Assembly: GCF_029227915.1 (NCBI RefSeq)
Contig: NC_079878.1
Coordinates: 9,178,001 to 9,242,000, forward strand
Length of the DNA: 64,000 bases
Direction of reading: 5' to 3'
DNA from: Hydractinia symbiolongicarpus
Taxonomy: Eukaryota > Cnidaria > Hydrozoa > Anthoathecata > Hydractiniidae
The translations under genes were made by a program, and so were the position numbers. The notes under the pieces are model-generated. The model saw only the letters and a program-made list of their open reading frames with translations. It did not search any database and was not told the origin of the DNA. This document shows positions 15,701-27,700 of the stretch, piece after piece; position 1 is the first letter of the stretch, and every line of letters starts with the position of its first letter.

Positions 15701-18700
15701 TAACTGTTTCCTGATTTTAATACATCCAACTGATCAATATTCCAATGAGACAACTGTTAGATTTTTCCTTCTTTAGGCCTTTATATAATTAAATAAGTGT
15801 GTAATGAATGTAGTAATTCAAACTTTTTTGTTACAATGTTTTTTTATTGTTCTGTTGTACTGAATTTACCAAATATCTTATATAATATATTTTTATGTAA
15901 TTTTAGTGCACGACGTCAAATAATCTATCCCGTGGAAGATTTAATGGGGAACTCACCTGTAGAACAAGTTCTGTATAATAAGGTAAGGATTAGTTATGAG
16001 CCATGTGGAATAATCCACCGTATGCAAAACATTGTTTCTGGAGACACATGTATGTTTTGATGCAATCACTGGTCTTGTCATACTCATGGAAAAATAAGAC
16101 GTTTGTCAAAACGACTTTTAGGCAATGTGACTATTTTGCGTTCCAGGTAGAGCTTTGGCTCGTGTACCCGAAGCATATGTAGATTAATCATTGTAATTGC
16201 TATATTTAATTTTTAGGAGCCATACGCTTTGTATCACATGAACAGAAAACTCACATTAGAACCAAAAGTAATATTTTATTGTTAATATTTACTTCAGCTA
16301 ACCATAAATACAGAACCTTAAATTAGGAAAATGTTAATAGGTGTATAGTATTAATAATGAAATTTCTTATGAGAAAATACTAATTTTACGTGAAGCGATT
16401 CTCTTAACCAACCGATGCTTTTTAAGGTGGTTGTGAACATTCGAATTGTGGTTGTTGGTGCGTCAGATACTGCTTTATCAGCATTGCAAACACTAGTTTT
16501 CTGGTAAGGATGTCAGACAATTAGATATATATTTTCCAATACGTATTGGAAACGGGCAAGCACCTGCATCTATCACTGTTTATGTAACAACATAGGTACA
16601 TCGTCATATTTATATATCAAAATGAAAATTTATAGCCCACATTTGAATTTCAACAACTTGATTTTGATATCCGAAACAGAAGCATTTGAAATCGATGGTG
16701 CGTTTGATAATCTGAGAAATGCATTTATACCTCAAAGGTAAGAAATAAACACAAAAATCTATGTGTAACATACACTTTAATTGTTTACCATGCACTTTAA
16801 TTTGTGAAATAAATGTTTGATCTATCTGACATAACAAGCATTCTTTCGTTGGCGTTTTCTTGTTTATCTAGTTGTTTTCAGGCATGGACATTAAATATAA
16901 AAAATTGAATGTTTTTTGTCTTGGAGATCATAAAAAGTTTCTTAAAATCCCACAAGCTGTTCCAAGATTAGGAAGCAACAATTCTGTTTGTAAGATATTA
17001 CTCTGCTTTTTTTTCTTAGTTTTGATTTCAACAGCAAACAGAAGGCCTTGAAATCTCTTAAGACTTGGGTGAATTTTGTGAAAGGGAAATTAACAAGAAT
17101 TGACAGGTATGATGTGTTATTGTTTTTGAAAGAAAAAACTAATATAATTATTATCTTATAAAGTTATTGCCTAAAGTAAACGACATGTTTCAAGTGAAAA
17201 CTACTCTGTTGTACTTTTTGCTCAACTTTTGTTTTAATCTAGCTAAAACTCATTATTTCAATTTAGAAAAAACAAATGTCTTACAATAGATGGTTCACAT
17301 AAAGTTCCCTATGACCAGCTTCTGTTGTGTACGGGTGAACAATACCATGCAACAATACCTACAGGTGCAGATGTTGAACAGCTAGTCACAACTAGTGAAG
17401 CTGTACAAATAAAACGACGTCAGGTGAGCTAGTCATGTTTTATTCCAAAAACAAACCAGGATTTCTTTGATTAATACCTGACATGTGCAAGAGTAATCGT
17501 TTAAAATGAAAACACCGAGGTGATAACTGTGAATATACGTTTCACAAGGCTTTAAAGGGACCTAACACAAAAAATTATTCTAATGTTTGATTAATAAGCA
17601 ACTCTTAGAAAATTAAAATAATCAAGACACCAGCCACTATGCAGTTTTTAAATGCACATGCTGACTAACTTATCACATTATCGATAACGTTGTCGTATGG
17701 TCAAATTAACATGCTTTCAAGATTTTCCAAACCTAAATATCGTAAGAAAAAAAAGAGATTTTTTAAAAAAAAAATCAAAAAACTGAAGGAGCGACTTTTA
17801 TCCTGTGTGACAGGGTTTCTTTCAAAGAAAGTTTGACACCTATTTTTTTAAGCTGATATATTTTGTAAGCTGATAATTGTCACCCCGTGTGTAAGCAAAC
17901 CATGAAGTTTACTGTGTTAGTTACTTGAATGTTTTTTATTATTATTATTATTATTATTATTATTATTATTATTATTATTATTATTATTATTATTATTATT
18001 ATTATTATTATTATTATTATTATTATTATTATATAGCGTATGAAATTATAATGGTCCGTGATTCTATGTGCGATTATCTTACACCCTAAACACATTAAAT
18101 ACTTTACATGTTCCAATTTTTTAAAAAAGAACCATTTTTAAGGAACTTGGTGTTCTTTAACAACTTATTAAAACATTGTTATAAAAGCGGAATGTATTGT
18201 TCTATTGTTACTCACAAGACAAGAACGTGTCGTTCCCATAGGGAATTTGATGGAATTTATGTGACGGTATATATCGTTCCACTCTATTTGTTCCGTTGAA
18301 TTCTTTTATATATCATAACGATAATATATGCGAAATGATTATCTTGAGGAATAGTTATTTAATTATGAATACTCTGCAGTCTAATTTATATTGTGCCACT
18401 TGAAATAATTCCGTTTTCGCTGCTACCTTAACTCTGCTATGGAGAGCGTCCTTCATTATAAAAAGGAATTGTTTTAATGAGAAGTTTCTCAACTAATACT
18501 TTGTATACGAAGTAAAGTATAAGGTAAGTTGTTCAAACTTTAAATTTATAGTTAATAGGATTCTTTTTTTATTCAAATGAATTCTTTTTTTTATCCTACT
18601 TTCTATGCTTTGTTAAAAACTAATATTGTTATAAACTTTCTATAAATTTTGTTTCTAGAGAACTTTAAAGAAATCGGACTGACAAAACGAGTCTTGCAAA

Positions 18701-24700: not shown

Positions 24701-27700
24701 AAATGCGTTACAACAAGTTACAATACGTTACAACACGTTACAACTACCACCTTGATATGTTACAACGCGTTAAAAGAAAAAAAACACATTTTCTTAACGC
24801 GTTAAAAGAAAAGTAAAAACAATTACCTTCTATAAATGGCTTTGGTTCGGGATTTTTTCCCTCACGATGAAAGTACCGTACGAATGCTCGGGGAGATCCC
24901 TTTAAATTTGGCTTGACATCGAAACATTTTTTGGCGATGTTATAACAAACTCCATTTGGCAAGCATTCAATGTAATTGTAATCCAGAGTTATTTGATCAA
25001 TTATTTGACACTCGCCGTCCGACAGCAAAAATACCAACTCTCGTAAATTTGGCGTAATTTCGTTGGCGATTGCTTTGTTTTTCAACGAGCGATAGAGATA
25101 GCTTTTCACCGAACAACAGTAAACGTATGTGTATCTGCTTTCTCCTATTTTTTTGTATACACCTCCATTGCACAGTCCAAAGCTATTCCTCTCCATCATC
25201 CTTCGAACTATATCCACGGATTGACAAAGTTTGTTAGTTGGCTTAACGGGAATAGTTACTTCTGTGCCTATGCGTGTAACAATGTAAAAACATGTTTTAA
25301 CTTCTACAAAAAACTTGTCTTATTATTGGAGAAGTAAGTAAATTTGTTCGTGGCAACTTACCTTCCGATTTATCAATTACTTTTAAATCAAGCGATGTAA
25401 ATCTGATTTCGGATAAACCACGAATTACATCTTGATATACCTCTTTATCAATATTTTTTGTTAGAATTAACTGACAGGGTTTCATCGAGTACTGTTCGCT
25501 TTCCATTACAGCAACGTGGTCAAGTTGAACACCTTCATCTCTAGCTGCACTCCTAATCATTGTGCGATGGGATATCTCAACTATCCGTTTTGCTTCTTCC
25601 CTATTGTGGTCTTTCAAGACTTGGTATAACGATCCTGAGAATGCTTGCAATGCACTGGTTTTGCCTACAAATATCAAATGTGGCGTAAAATATTCGAAAA
25701 ACATTGACAGTATTTCAAGTACTAAAAGGTTCAAGTATTTACCTCTTGTCTGTATAGCATTGCACGTTGTTAAATTCAACCCGGCTTGCATAAAAGACTT
25801 CGACAAATTTGTTTCAAATTGACTTAAGGTACAGTTTGGCAAGTCGCACGCGATCCAGAAAGAAATGCCAGGAAATGTTTCAGGCGCATTTGCGCCGTTT
25901 CTGTTATCACCTTCACTGCTAGAGTCGGCTCCTTCTTCTTCCTCCCCTTCATTCCTCATCGACTTTCTCTTACGAGGTCTGGCCATATAGGTAATACAAG
26001 AAAAAAAACAGGATACTTGTTCGTTGCTAAGCAATATGTTCTCCATCTGCATTCTCTTGCCCCAAATGACCTCGCGGGCATCAACATCACTTCCCCACAT
26101 CGCACGAACGGCTACTACCTGATATTTTCTTATTACCGGTTGGACGATGCATGCCTTCAGGGCGCGTTTCAAAACTTCACTTCGCAGTTGCCTGTTAGCC
26201 ATGTTCTGCTAAGTAATACAAACGAATGCTGTAGCGGAACAAAAATAATCTCCTATGGTTATATATTATTATTATTATTATTATTATTATTATTATTATT
26301 ATTATTATTATTATTATTATTATTATTATTATTATTATTATTATTATTATTATTATATTTACACTGGATAAAAACACTTCAACTAATAATCTTTCCCTAA
26401 ATAAGTGAAAATCTTTTTCAAAATGATGAAAATCTCTTTCAAAATGGTAACCATATTTTTCAAAAAATAGAAAATCTCTTCCAAAAAAGAAAAAAAACTT
26501 TTTAAAATGGTAAAATATCTCTCGACTACAAAAACACAGCCAAAGGTTATGGCCGCAAGGCGTAAAAAAGGCTTGGTAACGAGATACAAGACCTCATCTC
26601 TCTAATGTTCAGAAAATGTCAATATTCAAATAAGTAGTTGTGGAGACAAAAGAAAAAAACGCTATAAAATTTTTTGACGAAAAGTTAAAGTAAAAGTCTT
26701 AAGATGATGGATGACCTATAGAAAGGCAATTACAATAATATGGCGTCAAGGTTTCTATCCCAAAATATTACGTAAAGCTAACTTAAAAATGCTTAGTTAT
26801 AAAACTTTTAAAACTCTTCTTTTGTTTTCGTAAGTACGGTACTGGTGTGGGTTGTGCCGCATTGTTTAGACATTCGAGCGGTGCAAAGGTGTAAGTTAAC
26901 TCGTAATTCTGCTTTTTTATATTTTGATAATGGTTGGTTAACTAGGTGGGCTAAGCTAAGAAAATATGTCTTCCTATTTTGACTAATTATCATGTAGCAA
27001 CACCAATAAGGGGGATGATCTACCTTTTTGGTTTATTCATATACACATATATATTTTCTTCTGTATTTAGGTAAAACTAGTACAGCATTGTCTTATATAT
27101 TCAGGAGTTTATATCCTGCTTTTATTTCTATTTTTGCTTCTTTTATTAGCCGCCTGAAGTTTTTAAACCAGAAAACGTATTCGTCCTGAATGATTTGCAG
27201 CAATGCTTCCAAGTTCAAGAATGGCTAAAAAATTCTTTTAAAACAGGTTGATTATATTTAGTTCGTGTGTTTAACATGAAATCATGAAGTTTACAAATAG
27301 TTTTTCTGTACGGCAAAATTTATTTAGAATTGCTGCACCTCTCTGAAACTAATCCTTCTCAAAACGCCCTAATTCTCCTCAAAAATCCTCAAATTTCCGC
27401 AATACTCCTTCATACTCTATTTTTCAATTCTCCTTAATTTTGGGAATTCTTCTTACACTTTGCAAGTCTCCTCTACAGGTACATCCCTAACAGCTTCCTC
27501 CTTAAATTTTCCCGCTTTTCGTGTCGCAGCGTACTGGATGTTTTTTTTTAAACGCAGATAAGTGCTACATGGGTACAGCAATAATAAGTTCTTTAATCAA
27601 ATATTGTTAATTTCTTTAAAAAAATATGAAAATGTCTTCAAATCCTCAGTTTTGTTTATTAAAATACCTTCATTTTTAAAAAATGTTTTACCATTACCAT

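Follow-up and report, generated by a model that had tools for sequence, protein, structure and literature searches.

A multi-copy DNA element of Hydractinia symbiolongicarpus that pairs a tyrosine recombinase with an SF3 helicase between (TTA)n tracts

Most DNA transposons of animals are believed to leave their copying to the host; Helitrons and Polintons are exceptions. In bacteria, integrative plasmids and satellites carry a tyrosine integrase together with a replication initiator and iterons. Here we describe an element of the hydroid Hydractinia symbiolongicarpus which would share with these bacterial systems a working plan of integration, excision and replication, and which differs from them in lying in an animal nuclear genome, in having introns and in its microsatellite target. 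It occupies about 18033-26262 of a 64-kb stretch of contig NC_079878.1 (positions 9,178,001 to 9,242,000 of the forward strand, hereafter the window, to which coordinates refer), and its two genes are convergent, coding for a tyrosine recombinase (+ strand) and a superfamily 3 (SF3) helicase with seven exons (- strand).

Cryptons (CryptonA, CryptonI, CryptonF and CryptonS) are likewise DNA elements moved by a tyrosine recombinase, presumably as circles, and some groups have a short core at their ends (PMC3212892; this and the other papers cited by PMC number were available in part, and what is said of them refers to that part). The same source describes animal Cryptons as lacking a C-terminal domain after the recombinase and as lacking terminal repeats, and reports a C48 peptidase besides the recombinase in some Cryptons, so that the statement in a preliminary description of this locus that known Cryptons encode the recombinase only is not quite right. 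The group is further characterised by a crossover core in the form of a 4-6 bp direct repeat at either end. The element in the window differs from Cryptons in its C2H2-like finger, TRF1-type Myb domain, SF3 helicase, iteron arrays and (TTA)n target, and its recombinase has no DUF3504 match. The nearest precedent that we met for microsatellite targeting is found in endogenous nimaviruses, whose telomere-specific tyrosine recombinases, typically with a C2H2 domain, are tied to insertion into (TAACC)n and which possibly form concatemers or episomes (PMC10871703); the likeness is one of description rather than of a recombinase tree, and nimaviruses are large viruses (278-401 kb for the majaniviruses), compared with 7.9-8.9 kb, two main genes and a (TTA)n target here. 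Among polinton-like viruses, some have a gene for a tyrosine recombinase and some one for an SF3 helicase, and circularisation before integration has been proposed for them, but they have capsid and packaging genes, none of which was recognised in the element (PMC4642659, PMC12220804). The SF3 ATPase core fold is also shared with papillomavirus E1, parvovirus Rep/NS1, pox D5 and the SaPI5 primase-helicases, all of which belong to viruses or phage satellites. No report of an element with such a combination was found in the literature searched (subscription papers and Repbase lay outside the search). In the HSymV2.0 assembly 48% is listed as unclassified repeats (PMC10411563), and the words Crypton and tyrosine recombinase are absent from the main texts of PMC10411563 and PMC11067881, as far as these were available.

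The species' own assembly (480.9 Mb, 76 contigs) was searched for copies, and the window locus proved to be a single copy of a multi-copy element. The recombinase gave 54 matches, which collapse to 37 clusters, and the 46 matches of helicase exon 7 collapse to 32. A convergent helicase lies within 2 kb at 30 of the 37 recombinase clusters, including all 20 that are full-length, and exon 7 was found at each of these 20; 31 of the 32 helicase clusters are near a recombinase, and one stands alone. The other seven recombinase clusters comprise five without a helicase, one whose nearest helicase is 7.2 kb off and shared, and one (on C8) with both genes on the same strand. The preliminary description had proposed that the two genes form one convergent unit, to be given up if recombinase copies regularly lacked the helicase and the arrays, and the unit came through this comparison. 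An old, rearranged copy (G000:C8:15978200-15988100) has helicase and recombinase pieces on one strand, and two fragments on C7, one of helicase without recombinase (16664726-16665203) and one of old recombinase (18135570-18136357, 54-74% identity) without helicase exon 7, are possible remains of other lineages.

Over 2.5 kb of the recombinase side, 14 copies diverge pairwise by a median of 0.16% and by 0.59% at most, which points to recent movement. Thirteen of the 14 have an open recombinase frame (the window copy being counted from CTG). The helicase frame is open to at least codon 840 in ten, of which one aligns over part of exon 3 only and another has no AG before exon 7, and it is broken in the remaining four. 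In comparison with a diverged copy, L047, codons with a single change are synonymous in 36 cases and non-synonymous in 72 for the helicase (33% synonymous, about 21% being expected if changes were random) and in 9 and 28 for the recombinase, over 781 aligned nt (24%, against 21%), a comparison that says little about selection, L047 being a decayed copy.

The recombinase frame spans 18646-20325 (+), and domain and copy comparison place the gene at 18679-20325, with a C2H2-like finger (C18, C23, H37, H42), an Xer/Cre-like core and, at about residues 476-529, a TRF1-type Myb domain. The window copy has CTG at 18679, a position at which the other 19 full-length copies have the conserved start ATG; its next ATG is at 18733. 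R286, H410 and Y419 are invariant in 58 aligned recombinases (the window protein and 57 relatives), as is R383, while R385 is nearly so, and the second catalytic arginine is therefore either R383 or R385. Residues of the R-H-R-Y type together with the Xer/Cre-like fold assign the protein to the tyrosine recombinase superfamily, in agreement with the intact frame noted previously, for which R385 had been named. The label "Crypton-like" given to it is not established: at E≤1 the window protein matches neither a Pfam recombinase family nor DUF3504, and DUF3504 (PF12012) is not among the 25 families listed, of 37, for the 58 sequences, of which 54 match Myb_DNA-binding at E≤1. The search for relatives gave 983 matches, and one close named protein, P0002, is from H. 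symbiolongicarpus. The family has hundreds of members, mostly on metagenome or read-assembly contigs, so the element may be widespread. No relative was confirmed in IMG/VR by two scans with short peptide patterns, or in GTDB contigs by one such scan. Tracing gene linkage in Clytia through matching scaffold lengths was uninformative, as a single Clytia recombinase is among the 120 matches listed of the 983.

The second gene is predicted at 21938-26202 (-), its exons lying at 26202-25743, 25664-25362, 25267-24827, 23592-23434, 23362-23216, 23154-22948 and 22867-21938, with six GT-AG introns and a product of 881 aa. The motifs GPPDSGKT, VVFMDEW and FFITTN correspond to Walker A, Walker B and motif C, and with the modelled fold of the Clytia relative P0122 they assign the protein to SF3, as had been proposed from the spliced frame. 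The third intron (23593-24826, 1,234 bp) finds support in the annotated H. symbiolongicarpus paralogue P0121, which runs on across the junction; read by eye, P0121 departs at Walker A as if frameshifted. Scoring of 7,994 candidates yielded 14 relatives, namely P0121, eight from Clytia, one from Rhopilema and four on other contigs. The most frequent Pfam matches of this family at E≤1 are papillomavirus E1 (7 of 14, best 2.6e-4) and DUF5906 (4 of 14, best 1.4e-4), and four of the 14 match the P4-family primase C-terminus of NCBIfam. The model of P0122 (predicted local distance difference test score, pLDDT, 69.5) matches the SaPI5 primase-helicase, adeno-associated virus Rep, pox D5 and E1 over residues of about 256-585; its N-terminal region is mixed alpha/beta and is barely tested by the fold comparison. 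As regards the catalytic HUH-Y or DxD residues of Rep/HUH or AEP initiators, no conserved histidine pair was noticed by eye. Sequence searches of the PDB with the helicase gave chance-level matches only, and one IMG/VR scan with short peptide patterns confirmed no relative. In most other copies the spliced helicase is 11 codons longer, the difference lying within exon 7 (21938-22867); the first stop is at codon 873, compared with 881 in the window copy.

The term "arrays" had appeared in the preliminary description only among the things whose absence would count against the unit; two were found. Array 1 (20827-21908, +) consists of about 9 units of 122 bp, and array 2 (23646-24795, -), contained in the third helicase intron, of about 11 units of 102 bp, as delimited with Tandem Repeats Finder (TRF) and motif counts. 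Both are built from the 10-bp iteron TTGTAACNNN, in opposite orientations: array 1 has 54 TTGTAAC and no GTTACAA, and array 2 has no TTGTAAC and 51 GTTACAA (within 23646-24810). The commonest spacing of the iterons in the window copy is 10 bp in both arrays (36 and 26 intervals), which puts neighbouring iterons on nearly the same face of the helix. The arrays face each other in all 14 copies, the two orientations always being in separate stretches and array 2 inside the helicase intron, with 23-64 and 50-102 iterons respectively. L047, the decayed copy, has its genes in convergent arrangement as well and retains a single unit of array 1 and of array 2, each in its usual position, which indicates that the facing clusters are old in the family; from the sequence, the long arrays look like a later expansion. 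The idea that the iterons are telomere repeats for the TRF1-like Myb domain was ruled out, since the element contains no TTAGGG and a single CCCTAA (at 18084).

Between the recombinase and array 1, the list of open reading frames (ORFs) contains a small ORF of 112 aa (20364-20702, -) with acidic, SUMO-interaction-like motifs resembling the helicase tail. It has no Pfam match, and a similar sequence is present in L047. It is either a separate gene or the last helicase exon, and in the latter case array 1 would be intronic as well. Besides the recombinase, the helicase exons and this small ORF, the frames of at least 110 aa in the element are readings of array 1 and two that lie antisense to the helicase. 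None of the recombinase, helicase, small ORF and antisense frames (one taken without its TTA-coded tail) matched the capsid and packaging families tested, a search that a spliced, diverged gene could escape, and the absence of such genes reported earlier is borne out within that scope. The major capsid protein and packaging ATPase that define polinton-like viruses and virophages are thus not recognised among these frames.

On both sides the element abuts (TTA)n tracts lying outside it, delimited with TRF at 17936-18032 and 26264-26356. The runs at 17936-18031 and 26264-26356 are the sole ones of at least six TTA/TAA units in the window, none further being found in the 55.5 kb outside the element. 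The left end, TATAGCGTATGAA (18032-18044, +), is the inner side of the left attachment site (attL), identical at 9 of 9 loci tabulated, and its exact boundary cannot be fixed inside TTA. The right end, ATAATCTCCTATGGTTATATA (26245-26265, +), is the inner side of attR as read from the comparison of copies, and its last bases may be the target's. The left ends of the 20 full-length copies comprise 13 at (TTA)n, five at tandem junctions, one truncated and one at other sequence, and the right ends were readable at 14 loci, all of them followed by (TTA)n (nine in a first set and five of six tried in a second, one right end having been sought and not found). Wherever both ends were read (13 of 13 loci), (TTA)n is present on both sides, as the preliminary description had proposed from the window copy. 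The copy with other sequence on its left (L019, G000:C6:20367417-20372000) begins after AACAG; its right end was not found in L044.

The flanks are mostly unrelated among the nine loci compared, with some right flanks sharing another repeat. On C1, C3 and C9 the left flanks are the 3' end of one family of long interspersed nuclear elements (LINE), and the copies sit in its TTA tail; the LINE frame on C1 matches RVT_1 (E 6e-36). Ten of ten unoccupied LINE copies, sampled on the + strand from the 40 matches listed (668 first-look candidates), terminate in 18-87 bp of TTA or TTA/TTG repeat, beyond which lies other DNA; these empty tails represent the same target sequence at other loci and not alleles of the occupied ones. 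The LINE family (for example L031 1-1742 and L049-L058), with its RVT_1 frame and (TTA)n tails, provides dispersed landing sites. Head-to-tail clusters are present on C4 (four copies), C9 (two) and C10 (two). Four of their five junctions read GGTTATATAGCG, TATGG-TTATATA-GCGTATG, one differs by a base (TTATATT), and none has a TTA tract between the copies. The possibility that the tracts are part of the element was ruled out, as they are absent from the tandem junctions and present in the empty LINE tails. Judging from their sequence, the junctions fit what a circle with joined ends, or integration at the end of a resident copy, would leave. Two kinds of right end are seen at TTA tracts, GGTTAT|TATTATT (seven) and GGTTATATA|TTATTATT (seven), the second of which is not produced by a simple exchange in one register of the core, and we cannot explain it. 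TTAT is common to both ends and the target, the exact core not being fixable within (TTA)n, and inverted arms at the junction are weak only.

The reading that we consider probable is that of an autonomous, plasmid-like hydrozoan DNA transposon which forms circles, targets (TTA)n and brings its own replication initiator and origin-like iterons. There is good support for the unit, for its ends and for its target; that it forms circles and replicates we infer. By analogy with its enzyme family, the recombinase would excise a circular form of the element, in which the ends, joined as CTATGG-TTATATA-GCGTATG, make up the attachment site. Integration would proceed by crossover in the shared TTAT, with either a (TTA)n tract or a resident copy as the target, the latter giving tandems. 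The fold and the anatomy of the arrays suggest, more tentatively, that the SF3 helicase is the initiator, its N-terminal domain binding the 10-bp iterons, possibly helped there by the Myb domain of the recombinase, and that it opens the strands of the circle and brings in host polymerases. The additional circles could then reinsert, raising copy number without a cut-and-paste transposase. The preliminary description had likewise proposed a transposon that leaves as a circle and replicates with its own helicase; the circular intermediate fits the tandem junctions, and replication is the part that we only infer. This last point, the wide variation in iteron numbers and the broken helicase frame in four of 14 copies, which may mean that the helicase works in trans or can be done without, would suit a (TTA)n-targeting recombinase transposon in which helicase and iterons have a role apart from its replication, for example in transcription regulation or strand exchange, and copies rise only through host replication or tandem growth. 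We consider this unlikely, given that helicase exon 7 is kept at every full-length recombinase locus, that the helicase has relatives in Clytia and Rhopilema and that its SF3 motifs and initiator-like ATPase fold are kept.

A true Crypton of the CryptonA group that captured a helicase is a doubtful alternative to the plasmid-like transposon. A recombinase-driven element with a presumed circle and a short core resembles a Crypton, and cnidarian Cryptons exist (PMC3212892), but the lack of a DUF3504 match for the window protein and the C-terminal Myb domain, which animal Cryptons are described without in the available part of that paper, argue against it. Membership is not claimed here because of the Myb domain, the helicase and the arrays. 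Still less probable is what is left of a small virophage or polinton-like DNA virus, now without capsid genes and only decaying, an alternative also raised in the preliminary description as a degraded provirus. Polinton-like viruses can have both an SF3 helicase and a tyrosine recombinase (PMC4642659), and the helicase core fold is common to viral helicases; against this, near-identical copies have the same content and ends, the older L047 has the same layout, the unassigned frames of at least 110 aa match no capsid family tested and the pattern-based IMG/VR scans found no relatives. A viral ancestor of the element is possible. Two independent side-by-side insertions, which the differing coding style of the genes (one long frame, seven exons) might have suggested, are refuted by the same-order pairing at 30 of 37 recombinase loci.

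Elsewhere in the window, a stop-free frame of 1,804 aa at 54540-59951 (+) is of the BEL/Pao retrotransposon type (Peptidase_A17, E 7e-50, with RVT_1 and H2C2). At 9421-10748 (-), a fragment of DDE_1 transposase (E 1.5e-10) and, next to it, a Brinker-type DNA-binding domain (E 4e-5) are probably a decayed transposon, and within 3664-4415 (-) an rve integrase fragment at 3996-4415, which falls slightly short of the Pfam cut-off (E 3e-7), is probably what remains of a retroelement. A tandem array at 33718-34282 has 12.3 copies of a 46-bp unit; each unit carries TGCCGACG and its inverse CGTCGGCA, and could therefore fold back.

We lean slightly towards placing the element in a class of its own among the mobile elements of animals, as an integrative nuclear plasmid that has no capsid and that combines an SF3 initiator, an origin of two facing iteron clusters (one in the initiator's intron) and a telobox-Myb tyrosine recombinase that targets microsatellites and LINE tails; this class may be widespread. 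If true, the pairing of a circle-forming recombinase with an SF3 initiator and iterons in a small element would give animals an equivalent of integrative plasmids, and could connect capsid-less replicons with small DNA viruses. In landing in LINE TTA tails, one selfish element is housed by another, which is unusual. With near-identical copies in a hydroid that serves as a stem-cell model and has published HiFi and Hi-C data (PMC10411563), excision, replication of the circle and repeat-targeted integration would be directly testable.

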